From NCBI GenBank assembly GCA_021646465.1, contig SOET01000010.1, positions 1-64,000 on the forward strand: a stretch of DNA of 64,000 nt, read 5' to 3'. The stretch comes from Candidatus Kuenenia hertensis. Lineage in GTDB: Bacteria > Planctomycetota > Brocadiia > Brocadiales > Brocadiaceae. Under the pieces are notes generated by a model. The model did not search any database and had not been told where the DNA came from. It worked only from the letters and a program-made list of their open reading frames with translations. Below, piece after piece: positions 24,149 through 46,988 of this stretch (its first letter is position 1; every line of letters begins with the position of its first letter). A program made the translations under genes and the position numbers.

Positions 24149-25191
24149 GGTCAGACCTTGACTACAGAATACAATTGACAAGGTTGTAATAATACATTAT
24201 TTTAGTCTGCTATTATGGCACGGCCCTGGAGAATTCAATATACCAATGCAATATATCATATCATGTCAAGAGGCGTTGCTCAGGGAGAGGTATTTTATGG
24301 CAACGAAGACTATCATAAATTTTTGGAGTATCTTAAAAAAACCTCTGAAAAGTTTCAATTAGAGATATTTGCCTTTGTCCTCATGGGAAATCATTATCAT
24401 CTGTTTTTACGCACAAGAGAGGCGAATCTTTCCAGGGCAATGCAATGGTTGCAAACATCTTACAGTATTTATTTTAATCGGAAGTACGGAAGGAGCGGGC
24501 ATCTTTTTCAGGGACGATACAAAAGTATTCTGGTAGGAGAGGAGTCTTACTGGAAAGGGTTAAGTTTCTATATCCATTTGAATCCTGTCCGTGCAGGCAT
24601 TGTAAAGGAATTAGATGATTATAAATGGAGCAGCTACCATGATTATGTGAAGGCAAAAAAAATTTATCATTGGATATCCTGTGATGTGATTTTAAAGGAA
24701 TTCGGGAACGATGAAAAGAAATCAAGGGTTGAATACAGGAAATTAATAAGAGAACAAGCAGGTCAGGAAAAGAAAATCCTGGATGAGGTTAAATGTGGGC
24801 TTATTCTGGGAAGCGAGGAGTTTATTGGTTGGGTGCAAAAGGAATTTATTAATCGCTTCTCTGCAAGGGATGCAGAATTACCGCAGAAAAGGCTGGTCGG
24901 AGATAACGGGATTATAGAAAAGGTATTAGATGAAGTTGCAAAGTATTTTGAAGTAGAACAAAGCCAATTATTACTGAGGAAGAGGCGAGTACCGCAAAAG
25001 GACAGAGATGTATGCATGTACATTTTAAAGGAACACAGTGGATTAGATAATAAGAGGATTGGGGAAGTATTTGGTGTAAGTTTAAGTGCGGTAACAAAAG
25101 CCGCCCTGCGGATAAGTGAACAAATGAAATCAGAAAGAAGATTTAAACAACAGATGGAACAGATTTTAAATTCTATATTCAAGGTCTGACC
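24149..25191 (+). mobile_element. HUH (Y1) transposase element with inverted ends
   Basis: A 13-bp perfect inverted pair, GGTCAGACCTTGA at 24149-24161 and its complement at 25179-25191, extends to about 22 matches of 25. Between them is only the transposase gene, whose stop codon lies inside the right end. The right end is 3 bp from the hsdM start codon. Confidence 0.8.
24215..25189 (+). CDS. REP-associated-type Y1 (HUH) transposase
   Basis: 324 residues. Residues 1-130 are a Y1_Tnp (IS200/RAYT) domain: start MARPWRIQYTNAIYHIMSRG, the HUH metal motif in MGNHYHLFLRT, and the catalytic tyrosine helix AMQWLQTSYSIYFN followed by GRSGHLFQGRYKS. The C-terminal third holds an HTH of DnaA-like character (HSGLDNKRIGEVFGVSLSAVTKAALRI), as in longer members. 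It would nick and join single-stranded DNA at hairpins. Reading frame and motifs are intact, so it may be active. Confidence 0.88.
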   Translation: MARPWRIQYTNAIYHIMSRGVAQGEVFYGNEDYHKFLEYLKKTSEKFQLEIFAFVLMGNHYHLFLRTREANLSRAMQWLQTSYSIYFNRKYGRSGHLFQGRYKSILVGEESYWKGLSFYIHLNPVRAGIVKELDDYKWSSYHDYVKAKKIYHWISCDVILKEFGNDEKKSRVEYRKLIREQAGQEKKILDEVKCGLILGSEEFIGWVQKEFINRFSARDAELPQKRLVGDNGIIEKVLDEVAKYFEVEQSQLLLRKRRVPQKDRDVCMYILKEHSGLDNKRIGEVFGVSLSAVTKAALRISEQMKSERRFKQQMEQILNSIFKV

Positions 25192-25194
25192 TTT

Positions 25195-26793
25195 ATGGCG
25201 AAGAAGAATGGCAACGGAGAAAAAGTAAAATCAATGGAGTCCTGGATATGGGATGCGGCATGCAGTATCAGAGGTGCCGCCGACGCTGCCAAATACAAAG
25301 ACTTTATTCTCCCCTTAATATTTGTAAAAAGATTATGTGACGTATTTGATGATGAAATAAACCGCATTGCGGAAAACCTAAGTAAAAAAAGCGGTGCGGT
25401 GAGCGTGTCGAACCGAACCAAAGCCCTGCAATTGGTTGAACGGGATAAATCATTAGTCCGCTTTTATCTGCCTTTAAAAACGAAAAACCCGGCAAAAGAT
25501 TCTGCATGGGATGCGATCAGAACCTTAAGCGACAAAATCGGCCAGCAGCTTACTGATATTATGCGCTCAATTGCAAAAGAAAATACGGGCTTGCAGGGGA
25601 TTATTAACCGTATCGACTTTAACGCAACTACTCACGGACAGCGCGATATTGACGATGACCGTTTGAGCAAACTCATTGAAAAAATCTCTGAAAAACGGCT
25701 TGGATTGAGAGATGTGGAACCCGATATCATCGGCAGAAGTTACGAATACCTGATACGCAAATTTGCGGAAGGCAGCGGCCAGAGCGCCGGAGAGTTCTAT
25801 ACCCCTGCCGAGGTTGGTTTTATCATGGCCAGAATTATGGACCCGGAACCAGGGATGGAAGTCTATGATCCCACCTGCGGCAGCGGTGGTCTCCTTATTA
25901 AATGCGAACTGGTCATGGAAGAAAAGATGAGGCTCAGGAGCAAAGAGAAATACGCCCCGCTGAAACTTTATGGTCAGGAGTTTACCCCTTCGACGTGGGC
26001 CATGAGTAAAATGAACATGGTTATTCATGACATGGAGGGCGATATTGAAATCGGCGATACGCTGAAAACTCCAAAATTTAAGAGTAAAAACAGGTTGAAA
26101 ACCTTTGACCGTGTAGTGGCAAATCCTATGTGGAATCAGGGACGCGACAGCCTTTCCTATATAAAGGACAACTTTTTTATTAACGATGAAATGGGACGAT
26201 TCCCAGCCGGAAGTTGTGGCGGCAAGATTGACTGGGGTTGGGTTCAGCATATTTACAGCAGTCTCAACGAAACCGGACGAGCGGCTATAGTCCTGGACAC
26301 CGGAGCGGCAAGCCGTGGCAGCGGCAATCAGGGCAATAACAAAGAGAAAGATTGCCGGAAATGGTTTGTGGATAACGACCTTATCGAAGGCGTGATCTAT
26401 CTGCCGGAGAACCTGTTTTACAATACTTCTGCTCCGGGGATTGTGATATTCCTGAACAAGACGAAAAAACACAAAAACAAGATTTATCTCCTGCATGCGG
26501 GTAAAGAGTTCGAGAAAGGCGACCCGAAAAACTTCATTCCTGAAGCGGGTATTGAAAAGATTGCCGAAACATACAAGAAATTCAAGGAAGTGGAAAAATT
26601 TTCACGGCTGGTGAGCAAGGATGAAATTGTAAAGAATGATTACAATATTTCGCCCAGCAGGTATATACATATTACCGATACCGAAACGTACCGACCGATT
26701 GGCGAAATAGTGGAAGAATTGAAAACACTTGAAGAAGAAACGACCCGTATTGATGCCGAATTGAAGGCCATTTTTGAAAAGATGGGGATATGA
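25195..26793 (+). CDS. hsdM: Type I restriction-modification methyltransferase subunit
   Basis: 532 residues: N-terminal helical domain (ESWIWDAACSIRGAADAAKYKDFILPLIFVKRLCD), AdoMet motif I DPTCGSGGLL near residue 225 and motif IV NPMW at 310 (the second Pro of NPPY/F/W replaced by Met). It forms an N6-adenine methylase with HsdS. The ATG is only 3 bp beyond the right end of the Y1 element and no SD is seen, so expression may depend on read-through from the element. A 309-codon antisense frame inside it is a shadow. Confidence 0.95.
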   Translation: MAKKNGNGEKVKSMESWIWDAACSIRGAADAAKYKDFILPLIFVKRLCDVFDDEINRIAENLSKKSGAVSVSNRTKALQLVERDKSLVRFYLPLKTKNPAKDSAWDAIRTLSDKIGQQLTDIMRSIAKENTGLQGIINRIDFNATTHGQRDIDDDRLSKLIEKISEKRLGLRDVEPDIIGRSYEYLIRKFAEGSGQSAGEFYTPAEVGFIMARIMDPEPGMEVYDPTCGSGGLLIKCELVMEEKMRLRSKEKYAPLKLYGQEFTPSTWAMSKMNMVIHDMEGDIEIGDTLKTPKFKSKNRLKTFDRVVANPMWNQGRDSLSYIKDNFFINDEMGRFPAGSCGGKIDWGWVQHIYSSLNETGRAAIVLDTGAASRGSGNQGNNKEKDCRKWFVDNDLIEGVIYLPENLFYNTSAPGIVIFLNKTKKHKNKIYLLHAGKEFEKGDPKNFIPEAGIEKIAETYKKFKEVEKFSRLVSKDEIVKNDYNISPSRYIHITDTETYRPIGEIVEELKTLEEETTRIDAELKAIFEKMGI

Positions 26794-26799
26794 ATATTT

Positions 26800-26824
26800 G
26801 CTGCCTGAGGCTCTCGAAGGCAGC
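26800..26824. repeat. Palindrome upstream of the GIY-YIG gene
   Basis: GCTGCC ... GGCAGC arms around the core TGAGGCTCTCGAA. It lies 6 bp after the hsdM stop and shares its core with palindromes at 27142-27168, 27206-27232 and inside hsdR (28824-28880). Confidence 0.8.
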
Positions 26825-26845
26825 ATAAGAAAATAGATAAAAGAA

Positions 26846-27187
26846 ATGAAAGGCTATATGTACATATTGGAATGTTCAGATGGAAGCTACTACACAGGCA
26901 GTACAAATAATTTGGAATTGCGATTAGCACAGCATCAGGCAGGTGAAGGTGCAAATCATACCAAAAAAAGATTGCCTGTTAAGTTAGTATATTTTGAAGA
27001 GTATGCAAGAATTGATGAAGCATTTTATCGGGAAAAACAAGTGCAGGGTTGGAGCAGAAAAAAGAAGGAAGCGTTGATAAATGGAAAGTCTGAATTGCTC
27101 CCGCAAGTGGCGTTAGCATATCGGGATATTAAAGCCTTATCGGGTGGCTTCGAGAACCTCAGCCACCCTAATGAGCCGAAGTTATAG
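26846..27187 (+). CDS. Small GIY-YIG endonuclease-domain protein
   Basis: 113 residues. Residues 1-85 are a stand-alone GIY-YIG (UvrC/YhbQ-like) domain: MYILECSDGSYYTGSTNNLELRL (the GIY and YIG positions read MYI and YTG), then HQAGEGANHTKKRLPVKLVY and FYREKQVQGWSRKKKEALI. The last about 20 residues (GGFENLSHPNEPKL) are encoded by a palindromic repeat, so the natural C-terminus was probably overwritten. It is inserted between hsdM and hsdS, where type I loci normally have no gene, and is bracketed by palindromes sharing the core CTGAGG-CTCGAAG. A mobile origin is inferred. Confidence 0.85.
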   Translation: MKGYMYILECSDGSYYTGSTNNLELRLAQHQAGEGANHTKKRLPVKLVYFEEYARIDEAFYREKQVQGWSRKKKEALINGKSELLPQVALAYRDIKALSGGFENLSHPNEPKL

Positions 27188-27376
27188 CTCAGCAGACCTT
27201 GCCGAGGGCTGAGGCTCTCGAAGCCAGAGCCCCCCCCCGGCGGGTTCAGGTCTGTGACCTGAATCCTACGTTTCATACGTGACAATTTATCCATGACCTG
27301 TCTGCCGACAGGCAGTAATGTATATATCGCTATTAATCAAATAAACTATTGGGTTCAGATTACAAATCTGAACCCG
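27142..27376. repeat. Cluster of palindromes between GIY-YIG gene and hsdS
   Basis: In order: GGGTGGC/GCCACCC at 27142-27168; GGGCT/AGCCC around the GAGGCTCTCGAAG core at 27206-27232; CAGGT/ACCTG near 27247; CTGTCTGCCGACAGGCAG near 27299; GGGTTCAGAT/ATCTGAACCC near 27352-27376. No gene is visible from 27188 to 27454. The density of different hairpins marks a hot spot for palindromic element insertion. Confidence 0.75.
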
Positions 27377-27454
27377 CAAGGGGGAGTTGAATGTGTTGGA
27401 AGAAGTAATTGGGATTGATAAGTAGTTGAAGACTATTTTTAGGAAGTTGGGGAT

Positions 27455-28726
27455 ATGATGGAAGATTGGAAAGAAACAGACTTGGGTTTAATTCCAAGTG
27501 ATTGGAATGAAGGGGTATTATCAAAATATGCAGAGAAACCACAATACGGTTTTACTGATAGTTCTTCAAACAACGGAAACGTGAAGTTTTTGAGAATAAC
27601 AGATATTACTGATATTGGTGTAAATTGGAATGATGTCCCGTTCTGTAACTGCCATGATATCGATAAATATAAATTAAAAAATGGAGATATTGTTTTTGCA
27701 CGAATTGGAGCAACAACAGGAAAGAGTTACATAATAAAAAACCCACCTTTAGCAGTATTTGCATCGTACTTAATACGAGTTAGAACAAAAAATGATTTGC
27801 TCTCTGATTATCTAATTTATTATTTCAGTTCTGAATATTATTGGAGACAGATTAATTGTCAAAAGGGAACTAATTTAAAAGGCGGGGTAAATGGGTCAAT
27901 TCTTAGCACCTTGAAAATAATTCTCCCCTCCCTTCCCGAACAACACAAAATCGCCTACATCCTCAGTACAGTGCAGAAAGCCATCGAACAGCAGGACAAG
28001 CTTATCTGCACCACCACGGAATTGAAAAAAGCCCTGATGCAGAAACTCTTTACTGAAGGGACGAAGGGTGAAAAGCAGAAGCAAACCGAGATTGGTCTTG
28101 CTCCAGAGAGTTGGGAGGTGGTGGAGTTATCATATGTATGTGAAAAACCACAGTATGGTTTCACAGATAGTGCTTCAACTCAAGGTAATGCGAAATTCTT
28201 GAGGATTACTGATATTACAGAATTCGGAGTTAACTGGAATGATGTACCCTTTTGTAACTGTCCCGATTTTGAAAAATATGAATTGAAAGATGGTGATATT
28301 GTATTTGCACGAATTGGCGCAACTACTGGAAAAAGTTATTTAATATCAAATCCACCTAAAAGTGTTTATGCTTCTTATCTAATTCGTGTTAGGTGTAAAG
28401 ATGAAATTTTACCAGGCTTTTTGATTTACTATTTCGTGTCTGACCAATATTGGAAGCAAATTGATACTACAAAAGGAAATAATTTAAAGGGTGGTGTTAA
28501 TGGCTCTATCCTAAGTAAACTCCTAACGCCAAAACCAAGTATTAAGGAGCAAAAAAGTATATCAGATATGTTTAAAGTACTTGATAATAAGCTGGCATTT
28601 TGCATAAAGAAAAAACAAACCCTCACCGACCTCTTCAAAACCCTTCTCCACGAACTTATGACTGGTCAGCGGAGGGTTCACGAAATAGATTTTGATACAC
28701 AAATACAAGAGGCTGCCCATGCCTAA
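27455..28726 (+). CDS. hsdS: Type I restriction-modification specificity subunit
   Basis: 423 residues with two target-recognition domains (about 18-155 and 215-360), each followed by a conserved coiled-coil spacer (EQHKIAYILSTVQKAIEQQDKLI; EQKSISDMFKVLDNKLAFCIKKKQ). The two TRDs are unusually alike (roughly 70% by eye): both contain EKPQYGFTDS, KFLRITDIT, GVNWNDVPFCNC, GDIVFARIGATTGKSY and LKGGVNGSILS. Normal HsdS proteins have unrelated TRDs and bind an asymmetric bipartite site; near-identical TRDs imply a symmetric bipartite site. The stop overlaps the start of hsdR by 8 bp. Confidence 0.93.
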   Translation: MMEDWKETDLGLIPSDWNEGVLSKYAEKPQYGFTDSSSNNGNVKFLRITDITDIGVNWNDVPFCNCHDIDKYKLKNGDIVFARIGATTGKSYIIKNPPLAVFASYLIRVRTKNDLLSDYLIYYFSSEYYWRQINCQKGTNLKGGVNGSILSTLKIILPSLPEQHKIAYILSTVQKAIEQQDKLICTTTELKKALMQKLFTEGTKGEKQKQTEIGLAPESWEVVELSYVCEKPQYGFTDSASTQGNAKFLRITDITEFGVNWNDVPFCNCPDFEKYELKDGDIVFARIGATTGKSYLISNPPKSVYASYLIRVRCKDEILPGFLIYYFVSDQYWKQIDTTKGNNLKGGVNGSILSKLLTPKPSIKEQKSISDMFKVLDNKLAFCIKKKQTLTDLFKTLLHELMTGQRRVHEIDFDTQIQEAAHA

Positions 28727-31706
28727 ACCTGCCGAACGTAAGAGCGTGCAATCCCGTATTCTGAAATACGCGCAGGATATTGGCTGGACCTTCGTTTCAC
28801 AAAACGAAGCTGAAGCCCGCAGAGGGTTTGCTTCGACAGGCTCAGCAACCCAACCGGGGGCTGAGGCTCTCGAAGTCCCCGCCATCAAAAGAGAGAAAGC
28901 AAAAAACGCCAGTCGTTTTTTTACCGAAATACTTTTTGAAAAAGTAAAAGAGTTGAATCCCAAATATAGCAATACTAAAGAAGAACTCCTGCGGCAATTG
29001 GATTTGCCGCTTCCCACCATTACCGGCAACCGCGATTTTCTCCAATACCTTCAGGGAGTAAGGACATTTTTCAGCAAGGAAGAAGGCAGGGAATTCAACC
29101 TTCATCTGATTGATTATGAAAACCCCGGCAACAACATTTACGAGGTGACTGAAGAATATTACCTCTTCAACGGCCAATATGCCAACCGCGAAGATGTGGT
29201 TTTTCTTATCAACGGTATTCCTGTTCTGGTGATTGAGTGCAAGAACGCGACCAAAGACGAGGCTATTGCCATCGGCACTGATCAGATACGGAGATATCAC
29301 CGCGAAACACCGGAATTTATGGCGCCGGAGCAGATTTTCACTGTAACAGAAAGCATCGGATTCTCATACGGAGTCACCTGGAATACCATCCGCCGGAATA
29401 TTTTTAATTGGAAAAGCGAGAAACGCCGTGGTGAGCTTGTCGAATCCATAGGGAATCTTGAAGCCAAGATAAAGACATTTTGCGACAGGCAACATATCCT
29501 TGACCTTCTCAAAAAGTTTATTCTCTTTGCCGAGCAGAATGAAGAACTGAACAAGTATATTCTGAGGCAGCACCAGAAGGCCGCCGTCGACAAGGTTGTT
29601 GCGCGGGCGCTCGATCACAAAAAGAATCGTGGGCTTGTCTGGCACACGCAGGGAAGCGGTAAAACCTATACTATGATTAAAGCGGCTGAGCTTCTCTTTA
29701 AAGCCCCGCAAGCGGAAAAACCGACCATTCTTCTTTTAATCGACCGTAATGAACTTGAAGATCAGATGCACAAAAATCTTGTTTCGGTTGGCGTTAACAA
29801 TGTGGAATCCGTTGACAGTATTAAGGACTTGCAAAAGCTTTTAAAAAGCGATTACCGGGGCATTATTGTCAGCATGGTTCATAAGTTCCGGGATATGCCT
29901 GCTGAAATGAATATCAGAAAAAATATTTATGTACTCATAGATGAGGCTCACCGTACAACCGGCGGAGATCTGGGCAACTACCTCATGGCCGCTGTTCCCA
30001 ATGCAACCTTTATCGGCTTCACAGGAACGCCGGTTGATAAAACAGTCTATGGCCGCGGAACTTTCAAAACCTTTGGTATTGATGATCAACAAGGGTATCT
30101 GCACAAGTATTCCATTAAAGACAGTATCGAAGACGGAACAACGCTGCCGCTCTTTTACGGCATGGCGCCCAGTGAATTATTGGTGCCAAAGGAGATACTG
30201 GAAAAGGAGTTTTTGGGACTTGCCGAAGCCTACGGCGTAAATGACATTGATGAACTCAACAAAATTTTGGAACGGGCTGTCAATACAAAGAACTTTTTGA
30301 AAGGCAAAAAGCGGGTTGAGCAGGTTGCCGAGTTTGTTGCCAGACATTACAAGGAAAATGTTGAACCACTGGGATATAAAGCATTTCTGGTTGGCGTAGA
30401 CCGCCCTGCCTGTGCCTTATACAAAAAAGCGTTGGACAAATTCCTGCCGCCGGAATATTCGGAAGTCGTATATACAGGCAACAACAACGATACCGAAGAT
30501 TTAAAAGCCTATCACATTGATGATAAGAGAGAGAAGGAAATCAGAAAAAAGTTTGCCAGGATTGACGAACTGCCCAAAATACTCATTGTAACCGAAAAAC
30601 TTCTGACCGGTTATGATGCCCCGATTTTATATGCCATGTATCTGGACAAACCCATGCGTGACCATACCCTGCTCCAGGCCATAGCAAGGGTAAATCGCCC
30701 TTACGAAAATGAAGAGCGGGAAATGGTAAAACCGCACGGTTTTGTGCTCGATTTTGTCGGTATTTTTGAAAATCTTGAAAGGGCCCTGGCATTTGACAGC
30801 GATGAAATAAACGCTATTGTAAAAGACATTCAGTTGTTGAAACACCTTTTTAAATCAAAAATGGAAAAGGATGTACCTCCTTACCTGCAATTGATTAAAC
30901 ATGGCTTTAACGATAAAGATACCGATACCTTAATTGAGTATTTTCGCGACAAATCGAAACGCAAAGAATTCTTCAAGCTTTTTAAAGAAGTAGAGATGCT
31001 TTATGAAATCATTTCACCTGACAAGTTTCTGCGGCCTTACATTGAAACTTACGCAACGCTATCGTCTATCTATCAGGTAGTGAGAAATGCCTATGCAAAG
31101 AGGATTCAGGTTGACAGGCTATTTCAGAAAAAGACAAATGAACTCATACAAAGCAAGGTTGGCGGGACATATCCCACCTTTGATGACGAATACTTTGAGA
31201 TTAATGAAGAGGCGATAGAATATATCATAAGTAAAAACAAGAATGAAAATACGAAGGTCATTAATTTGGTCAAAAATATTGAAAAAATTGCCGATGAAAA
31301 TGCAGACGATCCTTTTCTGGTTGGTTTAAGAGAAAGGGCCGAAGCCGTTGAAGACCGGTATGAAGACAGGCAACTAAGTACACAGGAAGCCATAGATGAG
31401 CTCCGAAGGATTTACGAAGAGGATATTATACGCAGAAAAGAACAAACGGAGAAAGGCTTTGACGGTCTAACATTCTTTGTTTATAAAACTCTGCTTGACA
31501 AGAACATTGAAAATGCAGAAGAAGTAACCAAACAAATCAGGGAAGAGTTTGTTCATCATCCTCATTGGAAAACCAGCGATAAGGAGTTGAGAGAACTACG
31601 TAAAGCAGTCTATTTTGCCGTTCTTTCAGAAGAAGATGATATCGATAAAGCTGCCAACCTGATAGATGACTTGTTTAACCATTTGTTCACTGCATACGGA
31701 TTATGA
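28719..31706 (+). CDS. hsdR: Type I restriction endonuclease subunit
   Basis: 995 residues from the ATG at 28719 (overlaps hsdS by 8 bp; an earlier ATG at 28692 is less likely). N-terminal PD-(D/E)xK nuclease with ECK near residue 172, helicase Walker A HTQGSGKTY near 311, DEAH near 407, motif VI region LLQAIARVNRPYE, then a helical C-terminal domain binding the methylase. It cleaves unmodified DNA with ATP-driven translocation. Residues about 37-54 (FASTGSATQPGAEALEVP) are encoded by two palindromic repeats inserted in frame between EARRG and the KNAS.FF segment. Confidence 0.93.
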   Translation: MPKPAERKSVQSRILKYAQDIGWTFVSQNEAEARRGFASTGSATQPGAEALEVPAIKREKAKNASRFFTEILFEKVKELNPKYSNTKEELLRQLDLPLPTITGNRDFLQYLQGVRTFFSKEEGREFNLHLIDYENPGNNIYEVTEEYYLFNGQYANREDVVFLINGIPVLVIECKNATKDEAIAIGTDQIRRYHRETPEFMAPEQIFTVTESIGFSYGVTWNTIRRNIFNWKSEKRRGELVESIGNLEAKIKTFCDRQHILDLLKKFILFAEQNEELNKYILRQHQKAAVDKVVARALDHKKNRGLVWHTQGSGKTYTMIKAAELLFKAPQAEKPTILLLIDRNELEDQMHKNLVSVGVNNVESVDSIKDLQKLLKSDYRGIIVSMVHKFRDMPAEMNIRKNIYVLIDEAHRTTGGDLGNYLMAAVPNATFIGFTGTPVDKTVYGRGTFKTFGIDDQQGYLHKYSIKDSIEDGTTLPLFYGMAPSELLVPKEILEKEFLGLAEAYGVNDIDELNKILERAVNTKNFLKGKKRVEQVAEFVARHYKENVEPLGYKAFLVGVDRPACALYKKALDKFLPPEYSEVVYTGNNNDTEDLKAYHIDDKREKEIRKKFARIDELPKILIVTEKLLTGYDAPILYAMYLDKPMRDHTLLQAIARVNRPYENEEREMVKPHGFVLDFVGIFENLERALAFDSDEINAIVKDIQLLKHLFKSKMEKDVPPYLQLIKHGFNDKDTDTLIEYFRDKSKRKEFFKLFKEVEMLYEIISPDKFLRPYIETYATLSSIYQVVRNAYAKRIQVDRLFQKKTNELIQSKVGGTYPTFDDEYFEINEEAIEYIISKNKNENTKVINLVKNIEKIADENADDPFLVGLRERAEAVEDRYEDRQLSTQEAIDELRRIYEEDIIRRKEQTEKGFDGLTFFVYKTLLDKNIENAEEVTKQIREEFVHHPHWKTSDKELRELRKAVYFAVLSEEDDIDKAANLIDDLFNHLFTAYGL
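28824..28880. repeat. Two palindromes inserted in frame in hsdR
   Basis: GGGTTTGC/GCAACCC around TTCGACAGGCTCA (28824-28851), then GGGG/CCCC around GCTGAGGCTCTCGAAGT (28856-28880). Both share the core of the repeats around the GIY-YIG gene. The frame stays open, adding about 18 residues. Confidence 0.85.
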
Positions 31707-46480: not shown

Positions 46481-46759
46481 ATGAATCCAAGAGTGAAAGC
46501 AGTAAAGGCGAAAGATAACTATAAACTTGAGATAACATTTTCCAATGGGGAAGTTGGGGTATATGATTGCAGTACTTTGCTTAATTTCGGGGTATTTTCT
46601 GAGTTGAAAGACAAAATTTATTTTCAGCAGGTAAGGGCTGCGCATGGAACTGTAGTGTGGCCGCATGAGCAAGATATATGCCCTGACACTTTATACTTGG
46701 ATTCTATAAAAATTAAAAAACCGCCTAACAAAATGCTTCAGCCGGGCAGGTTGGGTTGA
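46481..46759 (+). CDS. DUF2442 protein
   Basis: 92 residues: VKAVKAKDNYKLEITFSNGEVGVYDCS, VFSELKDKIYFQQVRAAHGTVVW, DICPDTLYLDS, the usual DUF2442 core. The last about 14 residues (PNKMLQPGRLG) are read from the attC remnant and MITE. DUF4160/DUF2442 pairs are regarded as toxin-antitoxin-like; this copy has lost its intact partner. Confidence 0.8.
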   Translation: MNPRVKAVKAKDNYKLEITFSNGEVGVYDCSTLLNFGVFSELKDKIYFQQVRAAHGTVVWPHEQDICPDTLYLDSIKIKKPPNKMLQPGRLG

Positions 46760-46988
46760 GTGAAACGAAACCCAACATTCTTTGAACGCCATGAACGGTT
46801 GATATTGGAGAGTGGAGAAGGATCGGGTCTCGCTCCTTGATGTTGTAATTATTGATTCCGCCGTGCTAAAAGATGATTAAGCTTTTGCTACCGTAGCAAG
46901 GTTGGGCAGAGGCACGAAGCCCAACAAACGGTTGAATGCTACGAAAGGTTGATGTTGGGTTTCACTTACGTTCAACCCAGTCTACCCG
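46723..46988. mobile_element. Half attC interrupted by a palindromic MITE
   Basis: GCCTAAC (46723-46729) opens an attC whose right half is missing. From 46743 a 246-bp element begins CGGGCAGGTTGGGTTGA and ends at 46988 with a related inverted end (CGGGTAGACTGGGTTGA read backward). It contains GTTGGG/CCCAAC hairpins and no gene. The duplicated proA tail starts 8 bp later. Confidence 0.6.

Follow-up and report, generated by a model that had tools for sequence, protein, structure and literature searches.

Small GIY-YIG nuclease genes are paired with TGAG/CGAA hairpins in several bacterial phyla and recur in type I restriction operons

What accompanies the type I restriction genes of Candidatus Kuenenia hertensis? 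In the window (the whole stretch of DNA that was analyzed, 64,000 nucleotides long), a gene for a GIY-YIG nuclease lies between hsdM and hsdS, and short palindromes with a shared TGAG/CGAA core occur on both sides of it and inside hsdR (Table 1). The encoded protein is a small, single-domain nuclease that retains its catalytic residues: in an alignment of 17 proteins, Y6, Y16, H30, and E63 of the GIY-YIG domain are invariant, and R26 is nearly so. By sequence, its nearest solved structures are the UPF0213 proteins (YhbQ/YazA; 1ZG2 and 1YWL), which have the same domain. Unlike the window gene, however, yazA of Bacillus subtilis has no such hairpins beside it, so the hairpin trait is not general for the GIY-YIG fold. 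The neighborhood has two further peculiarities. The two target recognition halves of hsdS (27455-28726) are very similar, suggesting a near-symmetric recognition site, and the gap before hsdS (27237-27400) holds additional, unrelated palindromes (GGGTTCAGG..CCTGAATCC, GGGTTCAGATT..AATCTGAACCC, and CCTGTCTGCCGACAGGCAG).

Table 1. Genes and hairpins around the GIY-YIG gene in the window. For cores, + means that CTGAG..CGAAG is read on the + strand.
Feature	Position	Strand	Core position	Description
RAYT-like Y1_Tnp gene	24215-25189			C-terminal DnaA-type DNA-binding domain; 6 bp before hsdM
hsdM	25195..26793	+		Upstream of unit
Upstream hairpin	26799..26825	+	26805-26819 (+)	7-bp stem TGCTGCC/GGCAGCA, core TGAG-GCTCT-CGAA
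GIY-YIG nuclease gene	26846..27187	+		113 aa, PF01541, E 7.8e-19
Downstream inverted hairpin	27142..27168	-	27148-27162 (-)	7-bp stem, core TGAG-GTTCT-CGAA
Third hairpin, in the gap between GIY-YIG gene and hsdS	27207..27225	+	27209-27223 (+)	3-bp perfect stem
hsdS	27455..28726	+		Downstream of unit
hsdR	28719..31706	+		In-frame hairpin pair near 5' end
Hairpin of inverted pair within hsdR	28828..28848	-	28831-28845 (-)	Core TGAG-CCTGT-CGAA
Second core of hsdR pair	28861..28875	+	28861-28875 (+)	Imperfect stem ggggGCT/AGTcccc

A genome-wide census of the core, as the earlier note had proposed, returned seven exact matches to CTTCGA-NNNN-CTCAG in 4.17 Mb. Five of these are the window copies at 26805-28875, and the other two are lone half-sites elsewhere; the 2.1 kb around the GIY-YIG gene hold every other perfect core in the genome. 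The reversed pattern had no match anywhere in the 4.17 Mb, and when up to one mismatch was allowed the window contained six matches, against 0.56 expected and a maximum of three in 100 shuffles. The two hairpins with 7-bp stems flank the gene in inverted orientation, and in DNA folding both beat 200 of 200 shuffles (z = -3.2 upstream and -4.2 downstream); the third hairpin (z = -1.5) was not clearly better than its shuffles. That one palindrome forms the 3' end of the GIY-YIG gene, as had been claimed, is correct, since the downstream hairpin encodes the C-terminal tail of the open reading frame. The palindromes also share a core, although the form first given for it (CTGAG-x-CT-x-TCGAAG) is too strict, the copy at 27148 reading CTGAG-G-TT-C-TCGAAG. 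Chance palindromes were considered as well, and are excluded by the shuffles and by the scrambled cores described below.

The last two cores make up one inverted pair inside the HsdR reading frame, where they add about 13-14 in-frame residues relative to an HsdR that is 59% identical and lacks the pair. A single insertion is thus the simplest account; the in-frame copies noticed earlier are thus real, but they need not represent two events. HsdR relatives on plasmids proved too divergent for dating this event. Elsewhere in the window, at 46750-46776, a solo hairpin with the same core (GTTGGGT-TGAG-TGAAA-CGAA-ACCCAAC) has no GIY-YIG gene near it.

How widespread is the pairing of nuclease gene and hairpin? 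Our main sample comprised the best 80 relatives of the window gene, chosen by protein similarity alone, mostly from Bacteroidota and some from other phyla. With TGAG-N3..12-CGAA enclosed by a stem of 3 bp or more counted as a hairpin, 72 of these 80 loci have one within 500 bp of the gene, whereas each of four scrambled or reversed cores is found near the gene in none or one of the 80. Hairpin density is 5.5/kb within 250 bp of the gene, 1.36/kb between 250 and 500 bp, 0.03-0.09/kb between 1 and 10 kb, and 0.03-0.08/kb if only 2-10 kb is counted, a drop of about 100-fold. The pairing suspected from this one locus is therefore specific, well above chance, and widespread. It also has a polarity: the nearest upstream hairpin is in the + orientation in 43 of 51 loci and the nearest downstream hairpin in the - orientation in 49 of 65. 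In a replicate set of type B loci (window-like units being type A), 16 of 17 had a hairpin.

As a second sample, 28 loci were drawn from 395 surveyed Bacteroidota genomes; here the figure was at first lower, the strict core being present in 14/28. Variants seen there have C-G as the first stem pair and a loop that is itself a hairpin (e.g., GGTCATTGAGTAGCGCGAAGCGCGTATCGAAATGACC). A generalized core (GAG..CGA, stem of at least 5, loop of at most 30), fitted after inspection of these same 28 loci, was present in 23 of them, whereas none of six control cores exceeded 3/28, and it was also present in 71/80 and 16/17 of the earlier sets; the apparently hairpin-less loci of the second sample thus arose largely because the strict core was too strict. 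Among 294 genomes of the window's own phylum, bracketed relatives occur on G070 contig 104 and on G153 contig 20, and G012 contig 10 has a relative with the hairpin on one side only. Overall, 9-12 of 29 own-phylum relatives, mostly 40-56% identical, have a hairpin. In Methylobacterium bullatum (L220, 1430-1860), the GIY-YIG gene is flanked by palindromes of the type CCTCATCCTGAGG..CCTCGAAGGAGG, with a CTGAG/CGAAG core and long loops.

What structure might these hairpins adopt? In 269 cores that were not selected for stems, the outward positions 1-5 can pair in 95, 93, 89, 74, and 60% of cases, compared with 59, 37, 50, 51, and 35% after shuffling. The stems covary: with one hairpin per locus (37 hairpins), the covariation score is 0.536 vs. 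0.150 for shuffled sets, a value reached in none of 500 shuffles and lost when partners are slid. Within 5-nt loops, nucleotides 1 and 4 are complementary in 95% of cases vs. 49% when shuffled. These patterns fit a hairpin whose TGAG/CGAA core forms tandem G.A mismatches within the stem, topped by a short closed apex, which would be C-GNA-G in the 6-nt class. Energy folding of the two best window copies prefers a bulged alternative, so this reading of the apex is provisional. Tandem G.A mismatches and the C-GNA-G apex are motifs of unusually stable single-stranded DNA hairpins, which favors folded single-stranded DNA as the recognized form. Loop class partly tracks the GIY-YIG tree, changing 22 times where shuffling gives 43 changes on average (minimum 36), or 20 against 30 (minimum 24) for the 80 loci only; host phylogeny, which the pattern follows too, may contribute. 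In two type B units (L167 and L171), a longer insert holding a second small hairpin takes the place of the upstream hairpin's loop.

The reading we favor, and hold to be probable, is that the GIY-YIG gene and the TGAG/CGAA hairpins constitute one functional unit. The protein would most likely recognize the hairpin when it is folded in single-stranded DNA and nick that strand there, as is reported for Ssn on NTS. Such strands would become available during lagging-strand replication or when DNA is taken up by transformation; nicks beside hairpins would favor local recombination or gene conversion, and this could carry hairpins, at times together with the gene they bracket, to new sites. Ssn, a Neisseria GIY-YIG nuclease, is reported in work from 2025 to be a site-specific single-strand nuclease that acts on the NTS repeats and has many homologues; the repeat is reportedly palindromic and present in many copies, also around the nuclease gene. 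The likeness lies in a small single-domain GIY-YIG protein and a palindromic repeat family clustered at its gene. The present unit differs from the Neisseria system in its internal-loop GAG..CGA core with covarying stems, in its recurrent hsdM/hsdS location, and in having only five copies in the window's genome rather than many. The element had been called little described. In the papers searched, largely openly licensed ones, we found no description of the pairing and no enzyme named for TGAG/CGAA hairpins; Ssn/NTS is nonetheless a close precedent. What our analysis may add to it are the covarying GAG..CGA hairpins, alleles with and without the gene, and the hsdM/hsdS slot.

Is the unit mobile? 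In Chryseobacterium, about 14 species carry the type B unit at the same orthologous position, mostly with perfect inverted tagged hairpins (TGTCAGGCTGAG..CGAAGCCTT-gene-AAGGCTTCG..CTCAGCCTGACA). The window-like type A unit occurs at about five different sites. Two sites in Chryseobacterium have both gene-bearing and gene-less alleles, the empty sites for which the earlier note suggested looking. At site 1, beside what we take to be a yceI-like gene followed by a short gene, the GIY-YIG gene is intact in three genomes, decayed in two, and absent in five. The gene-less alleles, with flank identity of up to 93%, retain at most one degenerate hairpin, so both gain and loss could account for them. 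At site 2, the gene is present in one genome and reduced to a pseudogene in another; the eight other aligned alleles lack it, most without any hairpin. The unit is thus present or absent at given sites in congeners. Insertion sites are varied, because the nearest neighbors of the 80 genes fall into 74 Pfam families on the upstream side and 75 on the downstream side. The window gene is ~82% identical to its best relatives, which are largely from Bacteroidota, and no more than 56% identical to any other gene of this kind among the 294 genomes of its own phylum, a difference pointing to transfer between phyla. The mobile hairpin-GIY-YIG unit envisaged in the earlier note is consistent with presence and absence at these sites, and the enzyme itself may have a part in moving the hairpins.

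Might the enzyme then be a true transposase, excising or copying both the hairpins and its own gene? Such an activity would account for the inverted tagged ends of type B units, the multiple unrelated sites, the absence of any hairpin from site 2 in most gene-free congeners, and genes ~80% identical across genomes of several phyla. However, we identified no target-site duplication, several hsdM-adjacent copies have no upstream hairpin close to the gene, and GIY-YIG nucleases are not known to have strand-transfer activity. We consider a transposase unlikely.

Many members of the genus Chryseobacterium have tens of copies of the hairpin per genome, vs. five in the window's genome, and one own-phylum genome has up to 183. 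By the strict pattern, the median among 118 genomes of this genus is 41 copies with a close GIY-YIG gene vs. 5 without (P = 2.7e-5, kinship ignored). Palindromes abundant in genomes lacking the gene, which the earlier note would have counted against its proposal, do occur, 21 of the 118 having at least 15 copies yet no close GIY-YIG gene; gene loss leaving a solo hairpin, as seen at one site, can explain some of the 21. A link to the GIY-YIG nuclease would provide a testable account of how these hairpins spread.

Type I restriction genes are the commonest neighbors of the GIY-YIG gene. The nearest upstream ORF encodes HsdM in 8 of 76 cases and HSDR in 2, and the nearest downstream ORF Methylase_S in 5 of 72; for control ORFs 5-9 kb away, the listed families include HSDR twice and HsdM not at all. 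In eight loci (the window, L078, L081, L083, L099, L110, L126, and L141) the gene directly follows hsdM, its start codon overlapping the hsdM stop in several, and wherever the contig continues (six loci) hsdS comes next. Compared between these loci, HsdM proteins mostly share 22-43% identity (65% for one pair) and GIY-YIG proteins 65-83%, which argues that the gene reached the slot after hsdM repeatedly. Targeting, selection, or shared transfer may underlie this recurrence. That unrelated type I systems acquired the gene in the hsdM/hsdS slot more than once suggests that such elements are linked to the evolution of restriction specificity. A bolder extension, which we think quite improbable, is that the GIY-YIG/hairpin elements form a bacterial class found in several phyla, move as a unit, repeatedly occupy the hsdM/hsdS slot, and there drive exchange of the specificity gene; if so, a selfish nuclease would shape which DNA its host restricts. 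We rejected the idea that hsdS generally forms a cassette between hairpins, since two-sided bracketing was found in the window alone. In two loci the GIY-YIG domain shares one open frame with a neighbor, HsdS in L110 and an HsdM-like protein in L061.

The same arrangement could mean that the GIY-YIG protein is not selfish but a part of the restriction system that aids hsdS exchange at hairpins. The position directly after hsdM in eight divergent systems, often with overlapping stop codon, the consistent hsdS downstream (6/6), and the copy that shares an ORF with HsdS would all suit such a role. Most units, however, are located well away from restriction genes, and only the window's hsdS is bracketed on both sides, so we judge this role very unlikely.

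The earlier note had likened the arrangement to RAYT transposases (TnpA-REP), whose genes are accompanied by REP and REPIN hairpins (PMC2817692, PMC3733652). The layout is indeed REP-like, with an enzyme gene bracketed by inverted hairpins and with dispersed copies, solo, paired, and inside genes, but the enzyme is a GIY-YIG protein rather than an HUH tyrosine transposase and the window hairpins lack a GTAG tag at the foot; the analogy survives for how the unit works, not for its family. That the hairpins are themselves REPs of RAYT/TnpA-REP type with the GIY-YIG gene as a hitchhiker, a notion encouraged by their REP-like appearance and by the Y1_Tnp gene ~1.7 kb upstream, is so improbable that we dropped it, as none of the 80 GIY-YIG loci has a relative of the window's RAYT (single query), the hairpins are instead concentrated around the GIY-YIG gene, and the core is unlike the GTAG-tagged REPs of RAYTs (PMC3733652).

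Compared by features only, the hairpins of the favored nuclease-hairpin unit also resemble CGTC-tagged palindromes, which include Neisseria dRS3 and Rickettsia RPE-4/RPE-6 and have no dedicated transposase (PMC3733652). Both are short, lack an HUH transposase, and have copies within genes, and some sampled hairpins have an outward TGTCA/GTCAT tag, as the CGTC-tagged palindromes have theirs; the window hairpins, in contrast, are untagged and have the GAG..CGA core. On pSymB of Sinorhizobium meliloti (L222, 870-1870), a GIY-YIG gene lies amid a different palindrome family (ATCCCTGTG..CACAGGGAT), which suggests that further nuclease-hairpin pairs exist.
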